Origin: an uncultured Oscillospiraceae bacterium
GTDB lineage: Bacteria; Bacillota; Clostridia; Oscillospirales; Oscillospiraceae
Direction: 5' to 3'
Assembly: GCA_944387035.1 (NCBI GenBank)
Contig: CALXDJ010000001.1
Span: forward strand, 1-64,000
Length of the DNA stretch: 64,000 nucleotides
The notes beneath the pieces were generated by a model. The model was not told the origin of the DNA and did no database searches. It saw only the letters and a program-made list of their open reading frames with translations. Of the stretch, positions 1 through 7,721 are shown piece by piece (position 1 is the stretch's first letter; every line of letters starts with the position of its first letter). The translations under genes were made by a program, and so were the position numbers.

Positions 1-102
1 TCGCTGGGCTCCACCGGAGTGGTGGGCTCGCTGGGCTCCACCGGAGTGGTGGGCTCGCTGGGCTCCACCGGAGTGGTGGGCTCACTGGGCTCCACCGGAG
101 TC
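1..102 (-). repeat. 27-bp tandem repeats coding PTTPVEPSE
   Basis: The unit beginning TCGCTGGGCTCCACC occurs as three identical 27-bp copies at 1-27, 28-54 and 55-81. A fourth copy diverges from about 82. The array runs off the window. Each unit keeps the frame and adds nine residues, so slippage would change stalk length without breaking the gene. Longer, less exact repeats continue to about 240. Confidence 0.9.
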
Positions 103-572
103 TCCGGATCTACGGAAAAACCGGGATCCACGGGAGTGGTGGGATCACCAGGCTCGGCAGGGGTCTCCGGATCCACAGAGAAACCGGGATCCACAGGTTC
201 CTGGGGATCTACCGGATCTACAGAAAAGCCAGGATCCACAATCTCAGGCTCGCTGGGTTCCGCAGAACCGGAACCACCACCGCCGCCACCGATGACTTTC
301 TCTACATAATAAGTATGGGTCACGACGGTCTCGCCCACCGCCAAACCGGTGACGACTCCGTCTTCGCTCACGGAAACAATGCTTCCGTCTTCCACGGCCC
401 ATTCATGTCTGCCGTTATCGCTGTCCTGAATATTGGGGAGTCGTTTGCTCTCTCCAACATACAGCTCCACGGTCGTATTGCCGCCTGCAAATACGCTGGT
501 AGGCAGCAGGCTCAAACACATGACGCACGCCATCAACAGCGCCGTCACTCTCTTTCTAGTATGTGCCTTCAT
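1..572 (-). CDS. Secreted Pro/Glu-rich repeat surface protein with Ig-like (Big_2) domain, 3' end outside window
   Basis: Only the first 190 codons are inside the window, and the protein continues past base 1. The start at 572 follows a good ribosome site (GAAAGGAG). Residues 1-29 form a Sec signal peptide with predicted cleavage after VFA. Residues about 35-88 look like a Big_2 bacterial Ig-like domain (WAVEDGSIVSVSEDG followed by VVTGLAVGETVV). A GGGGGSGS linker at 95-102 leads into Pro/Glu/Thr/Ser-rich repeats (VDPGFSVDPETP, then PTTPVEPSE units). This is the usual build of a wall-spanning stalk or adhesin. The C-terminal anchor is not visible. A c-di-GMP riboswitch lies directly upstream, so expression probably follows the switch between motile and sessile states. 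The adhesin role is inferred from architecture. Confidence 0.85.
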   Translation of the reverse strand, partial: MKAHTRKRVTALLMACVMCLSLLPTSVFAGGNTTVELYVGESKRLPNIQDSDNGRHEWAVEDGSIVSVSEDGVVTGLAVGETVVTHTYYVEKVIGGGGGGSGSAEPSEPEIVDPGFSVDPVDPQEPVDPGFSVDPETPAEPGDPTTPVDPGFSVDPETPVEPSEPTTPVEPSEPTTPVEPSEPTTPVEPS

Positions 573-603
573 TTCGTTCTCCTTTCAGTGTGAAGATCGA
601 AAT

Positions 604-688
604 GTTTGGCAGCCGGGCTGGCATAGTCGAAACCTTAGCCCCCTTGCTTTGCGTCCCGGGGTTTCCCTCCGGTTTGCCGTTTCATCAT
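604..688 (-). promoter_or_regulatory. Cyclic di-GMP-I (GEMM-I) riboswitch
   Basis: On the minus strand the leader reads GGCAAACC, then a short hairpin capped by a GAAA tetraloop, then GGGACGCAAAGC, then GGGCTAAGG, then CCAGCCCGGCTGCC. These are the conserved blocks of the class I c-di-GMP aptamer in the right order and spacing: P1b with its GNRA loop, the ACGCAAAGC junction, the CTAA segment and the P2 hairpin. The aptamer ends about 30 bases before the surface-protein start codon. No intrinsic terminator is visible between them, so control may be translational or through an unseen structure. It begins right at the stop codon of the upstream gene (685), so it may sit in a read-through transcript. 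Confidence 0.88.
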
Positions 689-1188
689 TTCCCAAAGGTA
701 TGTGTTTTTACAGTCTTCTCCAACCTCTCCTTACTTGTTTTCAATTGGGAGGTTGGTCCACTGTCTGTGGGTAAGGAGCCTTTGGCCATCAGTGCGCTGT
801 CCATTAGGAAAGCCAGTTCCAATGCGCTGCGGAAGCTCTCTTCCCGACTGCCCTCCAGCCAGGAAACCGAACCTTGCCAGCTGGCATTCTGCCGGAACAG
901 CACCCGGACTGCAAACGTTGCACATCGTCCTTCCCGTACGTCCGCTCCCGGCGGGCGGCCAGCTCGCATCGGCGGATCAGAAAAGCTTCGCACCGCCGTA
1001 AAAGACTGCGGAAACTGCATCCCATCCAGCAAATCTTCCATCTTCCGGAAAAATTCCATCAGGCTGTGAAACGAATCGCCCTCTGGAAGATACGGATGAT
1101 ACAATCTGCCGGAAAGAACGCTGTCCTGATATTCATCCACACACACAATTGTTGTCCGGTACTCATTTCCCCAGGCTCCACCCTGCAT
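685..1188 (-). CDS. Conserved hypothetical protein, 167 aa
   Basis: The start at 1188 is set by a strong ribosome site (GAGGAGGTGG) seven bases upstream; the frame is open farther upstream, but without a better site. The protein opens with EYRTTIVCVDEYQDSVLSGR, then LPEGDSFHSLMEFFRKMEDLLDGMQFPQSF, and has a conserved-looking block LFRQNASWQGSVSWLEG followed by SFRSALELAFLMDSAL. It has no signal peptide or membrane segment. The pattern is that of a small cytoplasmic family common in gut Clostridia, but I know of no assigned function. Its stop codon touches the 5' end of the riboswitch, so the two genes may share a transcript. Confidence 0.75.
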   Translation of the reverse strand: MQGGAWGNEYRTTIVCVDEYQDSVLSGRLYHPYLPEGDSFHSLMEFFRKMEDLLDGMQFPQSFTAVRSFSDPPMRAGRPPGADVREGRCATFAVRVLFRQNASWQGSVSWLEGSREESFRSALELAFLMDSALMAKGSLPTDSGPTSQLKTSKERLEKTVKTHTFGK

Positions 1189-1363
1189 ACAGAGACCACC
1201 TCCTCTCTCTATTTTATGGAAGCAGTATAGCATGCCGGCGTTACACAACCGGTTACAGTTTTTCGTTTCTCTTTCAATGTTGTGAGATAATTTTTCCCAA
1301 ATTTCTCCCCCACTTTTTGTAAGAAATGTATATATAGGATTTTTACCTTCACTTCTGTCCAAA

Positions 1364-2487: not shown

Positions 2488-2907
2488 TTATGATTCTGCT
2501 TCCGGAAGTGAGCCGTCCCACAATTCCGGTCCGTCTCCAGGTTCCCAAGTGCCGGAGGGCACCATCTGCCAGCGCAGCACCGTATAGGCGTCCCCCTCTA
2601 CCCGTACCTCTACTTCCAAGTCCTGGGTACTGGAAACTGTGCATTTATAATAGTATACGCCCGCTTCTTCCCGAACGCCCGGAGGAACTGTTCCCTCCCG
2701 CAGCTGGGCAAGAAATTCCTCCGCTTGATAATCCGCTGCATAGTACCCCGCCACTGCCTCCGCTGAGGCATCCGATAACCGGGCATCTGCCTGCACCGTG
2801 GACAGGCTCAGCATTGCCAGTACCGTCAGACACAGCACGGCAAAGATTACCAGCAGCGCACTGGCACCCGGCGCAGGCGGAACCGACCGTCGCTCTTCAT
2901 CCATCAT
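2488..2907 (-). CDS. Putative type IV pilus accessory (PilX-like) membrane protein
   Basis: The start at 2907 is chosen because AGGAGGT lies five bases upstream, and the gene overlaps the end of the one before it. After a short basic head comes a single hydrophobic segment at about residues 14-36 (ALLVIFAVLCLTVLAMLSLS), followed by an extracytoplasmic domain of about 100 residues with YYYKCTV and a Trp/Pro-rich end. The layout matches minor pilin or PilX-like pseudopilins of clostridial pilus operons. No classical prepilin cleavage site (GFTLIE) is visible, so processing is uncertain. It sits between another small pilus gene and pilT. Confidence 0.65.
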   Translation of the reverse strand: MMDEERRSVPPAPGASALLVIFAVLCLTVLAMLSLSTVQADARLSDASAEAVAGYYAADYQAEEFLAQLREGTVPPGVREEAGVYYYKCTVSSTQDLEVEVRVEGDAYTVLRWQMVPSGTWEPGDGPELWDGSLPEAES

Positions 2908-3316
2908 GTTCCACCTCCTGCCAGGCAACCGGCAAACCACAGATCCATCGGCCGTCAGCGGCATACACCGCCACCTCCGCCGTTCCCATGAACCCGCTTC
3001 CGCTCTCCCCCGGTGTTACCAGCAGATAATAATCCTGTCCGGCACCGCGGTTCCAATTGCTGTCAAAGCCATCGCCCCACATCACACCGTTCCAGGTGCC
3101 GCCGTACAGGCGCACAGCCAAATCCCAGTCGCCCCGGACCTGTTTAACCTGTTCCGCCGCATTTTGTGCGGCTACCAACGCCTGGTCCCGCTCCGCATTC
3201 TGCCGGGAGATCCGGTCCGCCAAGGCAAACGCCTGTAAGCACAAGGCTGCCGCCAGAGCAAATACCAGCACCATCACCATCTGCTCCATCAGGGCGAGGG
3301 GGGCCTTGCTTCTCAT
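2897..3316 (-). CDS. Pilus operon small membrane protein (prepilin-like)
   Basis: The 139-residue protein has a membrane segment at about residues 12-32 (MVMVLVFALAAALCLQAFALA), then a helical stretch rich in Glu and Ala, then a soluble domain with several Trp and Gly residues. This is the shape of a pseudopilin with its long N-terminal helix. Its ATG overlaps the stop of the upstream gene and its own 3' end overlaps the next gene, so the set is translationally coupled. There is no clear homology to a named pilin. The role as a minor pilus component is inferred from shape and neighbours. Confidence 0.65.
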   Translation of the reverse strand: MRSKAPLALMEQMVMVLVFALAAALCLQAFALADRISRQNAERDQALVAAQNAAEQVKQVRGDWDLAVRLYGGTWNGVMWGDGFDSNWNRGAGQDYYLLVTPGESGSGFMGTAEVAVYAADGRWICGLPVAWQEVEHDG

Positions 3317-3813
3317 TCCTCCACCGCCTCCTCCGCGCTGCGCAGAGTCCAGTACAGCGCTGTCTCATTTCCCTGCGGATCTGTAATCCGGGCGGAAATC
3401 CCCTGCCCATCGCTGGAAAGCGTCAGGTTCTGCATCTCCAGCACCTTCTCTCCATCCGCAGGCAGGAGTTGCACATCTGCAGCGGAAAACAGTTCCCGCA
3501 GATACCCATCGTAACAATACACCCGGGTTACATAGGTCGTCCCTTCAATTTCTTCATACAGCAGCAATGCATCCGGGCCATCAGGGCCAAATGGTTCCAC
3601 TGTCATCCCTGCGGCAGTGTCTGCCTGGCGAACCCGGGTCGCCAGATACTGTGCGGCTGTCCGCTGGGCGTAGGCTTCCTGGTCTCTTTGTGTCAGGCGC
3701 TGGTATCCGTCCGCCCCTGCCAGCAGCACTGCCAGCACACAGGCAGCAAACACGCCCAGCAGCAGAACTGCCAGTACACCATCCAAATGAACCGTTCTGT
3801 TACGCTGTTTCAT
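3313..3813 (-). CDS. DUF4860-type pilus operon protein
   Basis: The 166-residue protein has an N-terminal transmembrane helix at about residues 12-32 (GVLAVLLLGVFAACVLAVLL), then AQYLATRVRQAD, and a beta-rich C-terminal domain with VTRVYCYDGYLREL and LSSDGQGISARITD. This matches the DUF4860 family as I know it, found in clostridial type IV pilus loci. The start ATG overlaps the preceding stop (TCATGA). It is probably a minor pseudopilin-like protein exposed outside the membrane. The family assignment is by pattern, and the function is not established. Confidence 0.68.
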   Translation of the reverse strand: MKQRNRTVHLDGVLAVLLLGVFAACVLAVLLAGADGYQRLTQRDQEAYAQRTAAQYLATRVRQADTAAGMTVEPFGPDGPDALLLYEEIEGTTYVTRVYCYDGYLRELFSAADVQLLPADGEKVLEMQNLTLSSDGQGISARITDPQGNETALYWTLRSAEEAVEE

Positions 3814-4127
3814 GATCCTTGCTCCAAAACCGTAATATCCGGCATCAGATTTGATCCAAACACCACATACGACACCGTAAATCGCTCTTCATCGATCTGC
3901 ACGCCGTAATGTTCTTCCAAATATGCCAGGTCCGGCGGGTAAACTCCTTCAGCAGCATAGCAGGCCACACAGCTGCGGCGCAGAGCGTCTTCCAGCTGCC
4001 GCTTGCTTTCCTGATTCCGGCCACGTTCCAGATTGGATACTGCACTGAGAAAACACAGCACCACCAGTACAGCTGCCGCGGGTCCCAGCAATCCCCGGAG
4101 CCACCCGCGTCTTTCTCGTCTTCCCAT
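3810..4127 (-). CDS. Small single-pass pilus operon protein
   Basis: The 105-residue protein begins MGRRERRGW, a basic cytoplasmic head, followed by one membrane helix at about 13-32. A soluble tail of about 70 residues contains the pair CVACYAAEG and the phrase YPPDLAYLEEHYGV, which recalls the pseudopilin-type fold in which a disordered Pro segment precedes a small beta domain. It starts six bases after the pilC stop codon and overlaps the next gene. I do not recognise a named family. Its position suggests it helps assemble the pilus or primes the fibre. Confidence 0.62.
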   Translation of the reverse strand: MGRRERRGWLRGLLGPAAAVLVVLCFLSAVSNLERGRNQESKRQLEDALRRSCVACYAAEGVYPPDLAYLEEHYGVQIDEERFTVSYVVFGSNLMPDITVLEQGS

Positions 4128-4133
4128 AACCGC

Positions 4134-5174
4134 TCACCCAATAGCCGACATAATATTCATGAGCGGCAGCATGACAGAAAGCAGAATCGCCCCTACCATC
4201 AGGGAGCAGACCAGCACCATGGCCGGTTCAATCTGCGCCGTGCGGTCTTCCAGTGCCTGATCCGCCTCCCGGGCCAGACGCCGGGAAATCTCCTCCATCA
4301 CACTGTCCGCCGAACCGCTGCGCACACCCAGCGCCAGCATCCGGCACGCAGATGCCGGAAGCACCTGTGTCTGCCGCAGTGCCTGGGCCAGATCACATCC
4401 TTCTTCCAGTAAGGACCGGCATGCCCGGCACCGGGCCGACGCAGCAGGCACTTCCTCCAAAAGCCCCTGGGCCAGATCCAGTGATTCCTCCATAGGCAGT
4501 CCGCTGCGCATCCCCATGGAAAGCGCCTGAGCAAAGCGGGCATCCGACAGACGGCGGGCAATCCCGCGGTCTCCCCAGCGCTTCTGCCAGATCCTCAGCA
4601 CCTTTTGCCGGAACCCGCCGCTGACAGAAAATGCTCCCAGTACCACAACCACGATTGCCAGCACAGCGCACAAAACCGGCATCGCTGCATCCAGGCCCAG
4701 GCCCAGCGTCAGCAAACCTCCGGCCAAACCGGTCAGTTCTCCGCCCAAAGAGGCATAGACATCATTGAATACCGGCAGCACACGACTGAGCAGCACCACA
4801 ATGACCACCAACATGACCAGCATCAGTACCGACGGATACAGCAATGCCGCCCGAATCCGGCGATCCATCTGCTCCCGGGCATCGTAGTATCCGGCCAGGG
4901 CCTGAAGTGCTTCCTCCGTCCGCCCGGAACGCTCTCCGACTTCTACCAGTCCGCACACGTATCCCGGGAAACACGCAGCTTCCCGCATCGCTCCTGCCAA
5001 GGACCCTCCCTCATCCGTATAGCGCGCCATATTCTCCAGCACTGGCTGTAAAGCGGCAGCGGACTCCTCCTGTGCCAGAAGAGACAAACCGTCTCCCACA
5101 CTGACTCCGGCGTGAAGCAGCAGCGCCAGCTCCCGGCATAACCCCGCAGTCTGCAGGTTGGACAAGCGCATCAT
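4134..5174 (-). CDS. pilC: Type IV pilus inner-membrane platform protein PilC (T2SF family)
   Basis: The 346-residue protein has the duplicated T2SF domain. The first copy begins LCRELALLLHAGVSVGDGLSLL, and the second contains FAQALSMGMRSGLPMEESLDLA. Three hydrophobic helices are visible: a pair in the middle and one near the C-terminus (MVLVCSLMVGAILLSVMLPL). PilC anchors the assembly ATPase to the membrane. The start at 5174 is chosen because GGAGGA lies eight bases upstream; the open frame extends farther but without a site. It is the first gene of the pilus operon. It sits only about 25 bases after the terminator of the upstream gene, leaving little room for its own promoter. Confidence 0.9.
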   Translation of the reverse strand: MMRLSNLQTAGLCRELALLLHAGVSVGDGLSLLAQEESAAALQPVLENMARYTDEGGSLAGAMREAACFPGYVCGLVEVGERSGRTEEALQALAGYYDAREQMDRRIRAALLYPSVLMLVMLVVIVVLLSRVLPVFNDVYASLGGELTGLAGGLLTLGLGLDAAMPVLCAVLAIVVVVLGAFSVSGGFRQKVLRIWQKRWGDRGIARRLSDARFAQALSMGMRSGLPMEESLDLAQGLLEEVPAASARCRACRSLLEEGCDLAQALRQTQVLPASACRMLALGVRSGSADSVMEEISRRLAREADQALEDRTAQIEPAMVLVCSLMVGAILLSVMLPLMNIMSAIG

Positions 5175-5199
5175 GTTATCGTCCTCCATCCAAAAGCGA

Positions 5200-5233
5200 A
5201 AAAATGGGCTTGCAAAAAATTGCAAGCCCATTT
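5200..5233 (-). terminator. Intrinsic terminator between lipoprotein gene and pilC
   Basis: A 14-bp stem (AAAATGGGCTTGCA with its complement) is followed by a T run on the minus strand. It ends the transglutaminase lipoprotein transcript. Leakage through it may feed the pilus operon. Confidence 0.8.
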
Positions 5234-5267: not shown

Positions 5268-6266
5268 TCAGTAGAGATATTTCACCGTATAATTGCTTCC
5301 GTCTCCGATATAGCGCATAATCTCGCTGCTCTGCTTGCCATTGGCGGCAAAGGTCGGATCCATCCGCTGCCAAGATGTTCCATCAAAATACACCACACCG
5401 TCGATCCATCCGCCCTTTTCCGACCAGACACTGATCCAGGCGTGATAGGCAGTTCCGGCATATCCCACCACCAGCTTGCAGGGTGCCCCCTGGCTGCGGA
5501 GCATTCCAGTCATCAGAGCCGCATAGTCAAAGCAGATTCCCGTCTTCTTCTCCAACACGGAATCCAGCACCGGCAGATATCCACTCTGGACTGTAGCCGC
5601 CAGCTGCTTATCATAGGTAATATTCTGAATCACAAAATCATAGACCGCCGCCACCTTGTCCAGCGCCTCCGTTTTGCCGGCGGTGAGCTCCTTGGCCTTG
5701 GCAACCGTCTTGTCCGCATGCTCGTAATCCACATACTGATTGGGCCGCAGGAACGGTGCAAACTCATCCTTCAAGGATACCGAAATCGACTGAGACAGCA
5801 CCGTAGCATACTTGGAACCGGAAATGTTTTCATACACCACCACCTGATAGGTTCCGTTCCCGTCCGAAAGCGGGAAGGTGGTCCAGGCATCTCCCGGTGT
5901 GATGTTATATGTATACGTCGTCGTAGGTCCCTTCACCTGAACTTTGAGCCGCTTTGTTGTGGATGCTGTATAACGCACCATCACATAACCGTCGGCAGTA
6001 TTGGAATAGTCAATCTGCGCCTGGTTGTTTTGGGCAACCAATGTTCCGGATGCTACCGGCACCAGCATGGACGAAACCGCCGGCGTGGCTGCCAGGGCAA
6101 CTACCTCGTCCTGCAGCTCCACGTCGTCCATTTCCACCTTTTCCACATACATCAGTTCTGTATTCTCTTCTTCCGAGGCGGGAACATCCGTCTGCGTCTG
6201 CGCGCAGCCGCTCAGCAGCATCGCAGCCAACATTCCCACACTTAAAATTCTCCAAAGATTCCGCAC
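5268..6266 (-). CDS. Transglutaminase-like domain lipoprotein
   Basis: The 332-residue protein starts with GTG, seven bases after AAGGAGGA. The signal peptide ends in the lipobox LLSG-C21, so it is anchored on the outer face of the membrane. The middle (about 85-165) is beta-rich. The C-terminal half is a transglutaminase-like fold with a complete triad: Cys245 in KKTGICFDYAALM, His275 in AYHAWISVW and Asp303 in RMDPTF. Such proteins act as proteases, cross-linkers or peptidoglycan-associated hydrolases, and the substrate cannot be read from sequence. It lies just upstream of the pilus operon and divergent from the SARP regulator. Confidence 0.85.
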   Translation of the reverse strand: MRNLWRILSVGMLAAMLLSGCAQTQTDVPASEEENTELMYVEKVEMDDVELQDEVVALAATPAVSSMLVPVASGTLVAQNNQAQIDYSNTADGYVMVRYTASTTKRLKVQVKGPTTTYTYNITPGDAWTTFPLSDGNGTYQVVVYENISGSKYATVLSQSISVSLKDEFAPFLRPNQYVDYEHADKTVAKAKELTAGKTEALDKVAAVYDFVIQNITYDKQLAATVQSGYLPVLDSVLEKKTGICFDYAALMTGMLRSQGAPCKLVVGYAGTAYHAWISVWSEKGGWIDGVVYFDGTSWQRMDPTFAANGKQSSEIMRYIGDGSNYTVKYLY

Positions 6267-6437: not shown

Positions 6438-6524
6438 TCCACATATATCCTTTTGGAATGTCACCGGTCTTTTCTCCGGATGGGCCGGGATATCATTGCA
6501 GGGATTGGAAAGGAGGGAGTTTGT

Positions 6525-7721
6525 ATGGACGGCGGAACGATTTTTGTTCAGATGTTGGGGGAATTTTCCATCACGCTGAATGAAAAGACCATTACCGACA
6601 GTGCCAATCGTTCCAAGAAGGTCTGGCTGTTGCTGGCGTATATGATCTATTGCCGCAGTCACTCCATCACTCCCAGCGATCTGATCAATCTGCTCTGGAG
6701 CGAAGAAGAAAGCAGTACAAACCCACTCAATGCTCTGAAAACCGTATTTCACCGGGTCCGCTCCACACTGGATCAGCTGGGCAGCTCCGTCGGACACAAC
6801 CTGATTCTGCGCAAGGACGGCTGTTACATCTGGAATCAAACGGTACCGGTGCATTTGGACATTGAGGAATTCGATACGTTGTGCAAAGCCGGCGCAGAGT
6901 CACAGGGGGACACCCGGCTGGCATATTATCAAAAGGCGCAGGCACTCTATACCGGCGACTTTTTGCCCAAGCTTTCCTCAGAACCCTGGGTGGTTCCCAT
7001 CAGCGCATATTATCACAATCTTTATGTCCGAACCGTGCTGGAATCCATCCCCCTGCTGGAGGAACGCCAGCGCTATGAGGAATTGATCGCCCTGTGCCGC
7101 AGCGCCATTGCGCTGGAGCCTTATCAGGAATCTCTCTATCAGCATCTTATGCGCGGACTTCTGGCCTTGGGCCGCCAGGCAGAGGCTGCCCAGATATACG
7201 AAGACATGAGCCAGCTTCTGCTTTCCAATTTTGGGATCATGCCCTCGGAAGAAAGCCGCAGCCTTTATCGGGATGCCGTGCGCACAAGCAGCGACATTAT
7301 TATTCCCGCTGATACCGTACAAGAGCAGCTGCGGGAAACTTCGGGACCGGCGGGTGCTTTGGTGTGCGATTATGATTTCTTCCGGGTGATTTATCATGCC
7401 GAAGCCCGGTCTGTGGCCCGCAGCGGTGCCGCTATCCACATTGCCCTGTTAAACGTGGAGGGAGAGGGAGCCCGCTCCCTATCCCGCCGGAGCCTGGACT
7501 GCGCCATGGACAACCTGCTGGAGGTCGTCCGTTCCAGCCTTCGCAGAGGCGACATTGTCTCCCGCTGCAGCATTTCCCAGTATATTTTAATGCTGCCCAA
7601 TGCCAATTATGAAAACAGCTGCAAAGTCTGCCAGAGGATCATCCGTACCTTTTTCCGTCAGTTCCCCCATTCTCCTGCGCGGATTCACGCTTCTGTGCAG
7701 CCTCTGGAACCCAATCTTTAA
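6525..7721 (+). CDS. SARP/BTAD-family transcriptional regulator with degenerate GGDEF-like tail
   Basis: The 398-residue protein starts at 6525 after AAAGGAGGG. Residues 5-110 form an OmpR-like winged helix (VQMLGEFSITLNEKTI, then LNALKTVFHRVRSTL). Residues 112-256 form the bacterial transcriptional activator domain with TPR-like repeats (LYTGDFLPKL, then YQESLYQHLMRGLLALGR). Residues about 275-392 follow the layout of a diguanylate cyclase domain (RRGDIVSRCSISQYILMLPN). The active-site GGDEF is replaced by SISQY at 350-354, so it cannot be catalytic and may only sense or bind. It is a free-standing gene on its own promoter, divergent from the lipoprotein gene. Its target genes are unknown. 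Confidence 0.82.
   Translation: MDGGTIFVQMLGEFSITLNEKTITDSANRSKKVWLLLAYMIYCRSHSITPSDLINLLWSEEESSTNPLNALKTVFHRVRSTLDQLGSSVGHNLILRKDGCYIWNQTVPVHLDIEEFDTLCKAGAESQGDTRLAYYQKAQALYTGDFLPKLSSEPWVVPISAYYHNLYVRTVLESIPLLEERQRYEELIALCRSAIALEPYQESLYQHLMRGLLALGRQAEAAQIYEDMSQLLLSNFGIMPSEESRSLYRDAVRTSSDIIIPADTVQEQLRETSGPAGALVCDYDFFRVIYHAEARSVARSGAAIHIALLNVEGEGARSLSRRSLDCAMDNLLEVVRSSLRRGDIVSRCSISQYILMLPNANYENSCKVCQRIIRTFFRQFPHSPARIHASVQPLEPNL

Follow-up and report, generated by a model that had tools for sequence, protein, structure and literature searches.

A c-di-GMP-I aptamer predicted to switch on the translation of a single giant adhesin, probably anchored to the cell wall, in an uncultured Oscillospiraceae bacterium

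Adhesin-type targets are already known for c-di-GMP riboswitches, as the passages cited here of four papers describe (PMC4933901, PMC4744006, PMC6200980, PMC6447587). According to these passages, Vc1 of Vibrio cholerae is a class I riboswitch placed before gbpA and involved in positive regulation of this attachment factor (PMC4744006), and Bc2 of Bacillus thuringiensis, also of class I, is turned ON by c-di-GMP and governs cap, which codes for a cell-wall-anchored collagen adhesion protein (PMC4933901). The functional class I switches described for Clostridioides difficile are all OFF, one of them standing before a putative adhesin, and the class II switches are ON (PMC6200980). Sequestering of the start site by a class I aptamer is also a described kind of expression platform (PMC4933901, PMC11218506). 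Searching the open literature for c-di-GMP riboswitches together with the Oscillospiraceae led, in the text retrieved, to a single occurrence, in a review article on the riboswitches of C. difficile (PMC11477304). The same literature gave no paper joining c-di-GMP, riboswitch and Oscillibacter. Members of this genus and their relatives are common gut bacteria, the attachment of which has, to our knowledge, been little studied.

The locus considered here lies at one end of a 64 kb stretch of DNA from an uncultured Oscillospiraceae bacterium, which in its full length is called the window in what follows. Comparison with the Rfam covariance model RF01051 confirmed, by family match, that positions 605-688 of the minus strand are a c-di-GMP-I aptamer: the match reaches 70.5 bits for a gathering score of 35, spans the full length of the model (positions 1-87 of 87) and has an E-value of 8.6e-12 over the whole window, or 1.3e-13 over a 951-base stretch. 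An initial annotation, made from the letters alone, had claimed a class I c-di-GMP riboswitch with its sequence blocks in the right order and had proposed running this very model; the clear pass bears out both points, as the GCAAACC and GACGCAAAG blocks and the GAAA loop follow one another in the alignment as they do in the model. Considered in isolation, this is a genuine aptamer with nothing unusual about it. No other Rfam match passes its threshold in the 64 kb, and no second match to RF01051 was found in the genome of origin (2.26 Mb, 96% complete). The strand, which the annotation had not given, is the minus strand, shared with a gene starting with ATG at 572, of which the aptamer forms the leader; 32 nt separate the end of the aptamer from the AUG. 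That this gene codes for a secreted surface protein with a repeat stalk had been proposed as well, and agrees with the presence of a Big_2 domain (8.7e-7) in its product.

Position 1 of the window is the end of contig C1, where the gene is cut, leaving 190 codons visible (3-572, minus strand), with a signal peptide recognized by eye, the Big_2 domain and a proline-rich repeat stalk. The best relatives of its first 95 residues are 57-63% identical, and those that are complete are giant proteins of 3276 (genome G054), 3843 (G022), 4043 (G055) and 4337 (G043) residues; SpaA and Cna_B domains were present in both of the relatives that were scanned (G055 and G054). Another contig of the window's genome, C11, begins inside an open frame of 3009 aa (L202:1-9030), to which the C-terminal 500 residues of the G055 protein are 50% identical, and because of this orthologue match the C11 frame is probably the remainder of the window's gene. 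The ends of the two contigs do not overlap, and their repeat units differ. The C11 frame carries SpaA, Cna_B and fibro-slime domains together with a PATGDN sorting motif (TIGR01167, 16.6 bits for a cut-off of 15.9), and is followed by a class B sortase gene (TIGR03064, 192.1 for 153.75 bits), no other gene of the genome matching PF04203. In C. difficile, the sortase of the surface protein CD2831 is SrtB. Read in this way, the window's gene probably encodes an adhesin anchored to the cell wall. A sorting motif of the TGD type was read in 24 of 35 complete downstream proteins of relatives (six in full and 29 over 400 aa) and was missing from 11, one of which runs into masked sequence.

The aptamer is widespread in the genus, which we take as Oscillibacter: RF01051 matches at least 112 times in at least 39 of 86 genomes, both counts being lower bounds owing to strict filters and to many incomplete genomes. 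Of these 112 aptamers, 54 stand 20-51 nt before a start codon that is preceded by a Shine-Dalgarno sequence and followed by an open frame, and leaving out the upstream member of a tandem (G008 C7 244382) brings this set to 53 close-start sites, which a CTTTGC-like motif splits into 35 of the window's type (type A) and 18 of type B. Many of the frames downstream are long, reaching 2323 aa inside the stretch examined, and begin like signal peptides; behind some other aptamers of the genus there is no frame by our rule, or another kind of protein. Double or triple aptamers stand before secreted proteins at several loci (L068, L070, L053, L055, L084, L098 and others), with a different platform, CUUUGC/GCAAAG, that varies little. 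At the 18 type B sites, many of them in tandem arrays, this CUUUGC/GCAAAG hairpin gave no covariation in the strand-swap comparison detailed below (640 of 2000 permutations for the pairing S-R, 1990 of 2000 for L-S). At four loci (L042, L050, L064, L102), though not in the window, visual inspection showed a G+C-rich hairpin of the GCGG..CCGC type immediately 5' of the aptamer.

In the window, the segment that separates the aptamer from the gene is predicted to fold into a hairpin (570-604, minus strand) that would cover both the Shine-Dalgarno sequence (GGAGA, 582-578) and the AUG (572-570). Its energy is -12.1 kcal/mol, a stability equalled by none of 200 shuffles, and the computed probability that the Shine-Dalgarno sequence is paired is 0.99. 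This probability exceeds 0.5 at 30 of the 35 type A sites, for 40% of 109 control gene starts drawn from the same loci, and it exceeds 0.9 at 34% of the sites as against 6% of the controls; the value is 0.5 or less at five sites, two of which, in G083, are as low as 0.03-0.04. A scan revealed no terminator-like site between the aptamer and the AUG. In a MAFFT alignment the hairpin has a covariation score of 0.232, for 0.051-0.134 when its structure is slid along the sequence, and 86.4% standard pairs, for at most 59.8%. The cells with a double change number 13, but a slide by +1 yields 13 likewise, and neither the three pairs with a double change (354 of 500 shuffles) nor the 11 further pair types (94 of 500) stand above shuffles, so that two of the five measures of this column count, which takes its structure from the window itself and is uncorrected for relatedness, fail against shuffling.

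Strand S (CAUUUC, 599-604, minus strand), which forms the 5' arm of the hairpin, is also complementary to the 5' flank of the aptamer, strand L (GAAAUG, 686-691, minus strand), which extends the P1 helix outwards and overlaps the stop codon (687-685) of the preceding gene, orf167. A strand that can pair with either of two conserved partners, but not with both at once, is typical of platforms that switch. Both pairings were examined by a strand-swap comparison, in which the duplex energies of the sites' own strands are set against those obtained when strands are exchanged between sites, relatedness being left uncorrected. For the pairing of S with the start-codon strand R, the 35 genus sites gave a mean of -10.12 kcal/mol, for -8.38 after swapping (0 of 2000 permutations); for L-S the values were -5.97 and -5.30 kcal/mol (36 of 2000), and the control pairing L-R was without signal (1702 of 2000). 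The same analysis was carried out with 17 further Rfam-confirmed aptamers lying behind orf167, none of them labelled Oscillibacter and many without any label below family level; one of the 17 (L178) was left out as it had no start codon by our rule. The 16 others gave -11.17 for -8.11 kcal/mol for S-R (0 of 5000 permutations) and -6.26 for -4.94 kcal/mol for L-S (13 of 5000), with no signal for L-R (3806 of 5000). The covariation of L-S is moderate in strength. In silico, the leader has two mutually exclusive covarying pairings, hence what would make a platform capable of switching. The aptamer and the AUG are 25-43 nt apart at the 35 genus sites, in a search range of 20-51 nt, and 27-52 nt apart at the 16 further loci, in a range of 15-90 nt.

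We can therefore propose, with a probability of about two in three, that the c-di-GMP-I aptamer is a translational ON switch of one giant, probably wall-anchored adhesin, for which a response to the ligand is predicted. At low c-di-GMP, the switch strand just 3' of the aptamer (AUUUC) would pair with the start-codon region (GAAAU), and the Shine-Dalgarno sequence and AUG, folded in the hairpin, would be kept OFF. Upon binding of c-di-GMP, P1 would be stabilized and the switch strand would be held by the 5' flank of the aptamer (GAAAU, within strand L), leaving the start site free, hence ON; at high c-di-GMP the adhesin would then be displayed at the cell surface, anchored by sortase, and might serve in attachment. 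In known structures P1 is the helix that ligand binding stabilizes and, L-S being its outward extension, we infer from this the ON direction.

The opposite direction has to be weighed at this point. In a translational OFF switch the ligand-bound aptamer would free the switch strand to close the hairpin, which some other pairing would open when the ligand is missing. The hairpin is indeed compatible with a folded aptamer core, which it leaves intact, and forms the minimum-energy state with that core, and the class I aptamers of C. difficile are described as OFF, including one that precedes a putative calcium-binding adhesin (PMC6200980). Yet the alternative partner that covaries is the 5' flank of the aptamer, part of P1, which should gain from the ligand, no other competitor was noticed among the pairings that came up here, and class I control is reported as ON for two adhesins (PMC4744006, PMC4933901). 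We consider an OFF switch unlikely, without its being negligible.

The energies also constrain the preferred ON reading. When the aptamer core is fixed, the hairpin state comes to -41.4 kcal/mol and the P1-extended state, in which the inner five pairs of the hairpin (UCUUC/GGAGA) can persist, at -32.5 kcal/mol. This gap of some 9 kcal/mol exceeds, by our own estimate, the expected pay-off of ligand binding. As the energies favour the closed hairpin, an efficient equilibrium switch is improbable and switching would have to be kinetic: either folding during transcription drives it, or the ON direction is wrong. The same energetic dominance of the hairpin is what would be expected of a relic, where the hairpin merely dampens translation, uncoupled from any ligand; against this, the aptamer persists along with both alternative pairings and close to the start codon (25-43 and 27-52 nt in the two sets), and we would grant a relic very little credence.

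An ON switch supposes a supply of ligand. c-di-GMP is plausibly made in this cell because two GGDEF domains with an intact motif (C4 43798 and C36 9950) and one EAL domain, the only one in the genome, are encoded outside the window. That no diguanylate cyclase lies within the window had been stated in the initial annotation, and this proved correct: the four GGDEF matches of the genome are on contigs C4 and C36, with none on the window's contig. As for the identity of the ligand, the position just before the GCAAAC block is presumably the ligand-contact site tied to a preference for c-AMP-GMP. The window reads G at this place, and several relatives read A, for instance locus L078 (G041 C45) and several type B sites; the ligand may differ among relatives. 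Class I variants with a changed ligand-contact nucleotide are described as preferring c-AMP-GMP (PMC9481103). For the window's own aptamer, however, with its G and its match to RF01051, and in a genome that encodes GGDEF proteins as putative sources of c-di-GMP, another dinucleotide such as c-AMP-GMP appears quite improbable as the ligand in place of c-di-GMP.

Immediately upstream of the aptamer, orf167 (685-1188, minus strand) codes for a conserved protein of an uncharacterized family, and its stop codon shares bases with the beginning of the aptamer. It also precedes the aptamer at 24 further genus loci, with a gap there of 33-199 nt. Among the best 80 of 165 loci with relatives of orf167, 38 have an aptamer core, as judged by a simple pattern, no more than 260 nt from the stop codon; Rfam, applied to 32 of these 80 loci, confirmed all 16 pattern-positive cases (14 as RF01051, two as RF03167) and found one more aptamer adjoining orf167 (L176) among 16 pattern-negative ones. 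At L169 (4142-4224) and L171 (5427-5509), aptamers behind orf167 fit RF03167 (c-di-GMP-I-GGC) better than RF01051, and at L160, also checked with Rfam, two aptamers are elsewhere on the contig and not at orf167. Where the aptamer is missing, some loci have a gene for a large secreted protein behind orf167 (e.g. L134, L153, L158, L161, L173, L175, L179, L191), and others have unrelated genes there (e.g. L138, L156, L166, L168). Neither Pfam nor NCBIfam gave a match for the window's protein, and a comparison of its profile with the PDB sequences gave none at E up to 1. The family has invariant W-Q-G and FRS motifs, and the AlphaFold model (mean pLDDT 74) consists of two beta-beta-beta-alpha units. 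With this model Foldseek returned nothing at E of 0.001 or less, the best being Pur-alpha at 0.088, and VIA-align gave a best Z of 4.7 (2gkp), too weak for use. The stretch RVLFR/NASWQG bears what we take to be a resemblance to the PilZ motif. Of the families that 81 members hit at E up to 1, each through a single member, none was PilZ; a PilZ identity is thus unsupported by the family scans, as it is by the AlphaFold model, a missing match excluding nothing.

Upstream of orf167 stands a conserved promoter-like element, the tandem TGTAACCG, that is, a TGTAAC direct repeat with a 12-bp period (1240-1257, minus strand), followed after about 10 nt by a -10-like TATACT (1224-1229, minus strand). 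No -35 consensus accompanies it, and the sigma-70 scan lists no site there. Two exact copies of TGTAAC are found upstream of orf167 at 14 of 25 loci, and in an alignment of 11 loci, which were picked for carrying the element, both repeats are nearly invariant and TATACT is invariant. With at most one mismatch, TGTAACN6TGTAAC has a single match in the window's genome, that before orf167, as against 24 for the reversed pattern; with at most two mismatches, the one match in the window alone equals chance (mean 1.35), the copy found being exact. Some match exists in 73 of the 86 genomes, and elsewhere in the genus the pattern by itself is thus unspecific. A one-mismatch copy of TGTAACCG was also observed before a riboswitch surface-protein gene that lacks orf167 (G043 C19 30336). 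A promoter directly before the aptamer was considered and rejected: over 35 sites the mean best sigma-70-like score is 7.17, for 7.31 in shuffled sequences, and in the window none is listed between 500 and 1450.

A candidate for recognition of this element is encoded nearby, as a SARP-type regulator (6453-7721, plus strand) with the only BTAD domain in the genome (PF03704, 3e-21, 76.8 bits for 22.1) and an N-terminal winged helix that remains below its threshold (PF00486, 18.1 for 26.2 bits). SARPs are described as binding heptad direct repeats with a spacing of 4-15 nt over the -35 region (PMC10972967), and the tandem TGTAACC site fits a SARP-type target, to which binding is predicted. In the SARP gene, the initial annotation had recognized a decayed GGDEF-like domain; of this a degenerate, GGDEF-like resemblance at the C-terminus stands, but it is sub-threshold (E 0.012 and 15.8 bits for a cut-off of 23.8 with the C-terminal part alone, E 0.094 with the whole protein), and the translation contains no GGDEF motif, which is not what an active diguanylate cyclase would present. 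Nothing in the open literature joined SARP, BTAD, GGDEF and Firmicutes. In the genus, orf167 is present in 30 of the 86 genomes and SARP relatives in 32 (E below 1e-30; 37 at E up to 0.001). Twenty-seven genomes have both orf167 and the SARP at the stricter level (Fisher 4e-14), and 27 have both orf167 and the aptamer (Fisher 5e-10), neither value being corrected for relatedness. At 23 contig places, a part of those found for orf167 in the genus, orf167 and the SARP gene are 140-739 bp apart in eight and 5.27-5.43 kb apart in 10; they are farther apart in two, and the contig lacks the SARP gene in three. That orf167 lies beside a SARP gene is also seen where no riboswitch is present. One might go further and imagine a two-level c-di-GMP gate, where a SARP with a degenerate, possibly ligand-binding GGDEF-like domain would act at the sole tandem TGTAACC promoter, with orf167 as a dedicated partner of a new family, and where the aptamer on the same transcript would license translation of the adhesin; this we regard as a long shot.

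Between the SARP gene and orf167 lies a block of type IV pilus genes, all on the minus strand: pilT, for a type IVa pilus ATPase (1413-2474; TIGR01420, 409.6 for 319.1 bits), four small genes that are pilin-like by position only (2488-4127, of which 3313-3813 is DUF4860), and a pilC/GspF-like T2SSF gene (4134-5231; PF00482, 2.5e-43). A gene for a transglutaminase-like protein (5268-6266) lies upstream of the block on the same strand, and a second T2SSE ATPase, on contig C50, could be PilB. The proximity of pilus genes noted in the initial annotation is thus a fact, the end of pilT (1413) being 725 nt from the aptamer, but the coordination of pilus retraction that it had read into this is not upheld. 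This aptamer can act only on the gene downstream, and pilT is upstream; the aptamer therefore does not control the pil genes, which belong to another block, separated from it by orf167, the promoter-like element and an inverted repeat. This repeat of 20 pairs (1362-1409), with A- and T-tracts, is a possible bidirectional terminator; the terminator scan lists it for the plus strand only (one found, for a mean of 1.1 in shuffles), and on the minus strand the T-run is inside the stem. If pili and adhesin are linked, it is through their common locus and perhaps a SARP regulator in common. The order pilT, orf167, aptamer is found at nine of the 24 further genus loci, in stretches covering about 3 kb upstream. 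In O. valericigenes and O. ruminantium, orf167, an aptamer and a surface-protein gene follow one another, with SARP and pil genes that are not adjacent to them. The locus as a whole is a recurrent cassette made of the SARP regulator, type IV pilus genes, orf167, the riboswitch and the adhesin.

How, then, does this cassette stand with respect to known systems, as the passages cited describe them? It resembles Bc2/cap in having a class I aptamer before an adhesion protein, wall-anchored there and probably so here, and differs from it in its platform, since Bc2 uses a terminator and anti-terminator, where the window has a start-site hairpin near the aptamer, no terminator-like site and an abutting upstream gene (PMC4933901). 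With Vc1/gbpA it shares class I, the attachment factor of Vc1 being under positive regulation, but there the host is Gram-negative and the protein different, and the passages at hand do not mention a pil/SARP/orf167 cassette (PMC4744006). CD2831 of C. difficile is a c-di-GMP-controlled surface protein and sortase substrate, as the window's adhesin would be, yet under a class II, ON switch, unlike the class I aptamer with start-site occlusion proposed here (PMC6200980, PMC6447587). The parallel with C. difficile drawn in the initial annotation is a loose one, class I being OFF there and looking translational ON here. Tandem c-di-GMP-I riboswitches have been described (PMC9481103), and relatives in the genus carry such tandems before secreted proteins, where the window has a single aptamer. 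Three things are new: the Oscillospiraceae cassette, the uncharacterized orf167 and a switch strand for which two explicit partners can be named. The locus offers a testable switch for adhesin display, the strand with two partners being placed at the start site itself, and in orf167 it holds a conserved gene tied both to a riboswitch and to a SARP regulator.
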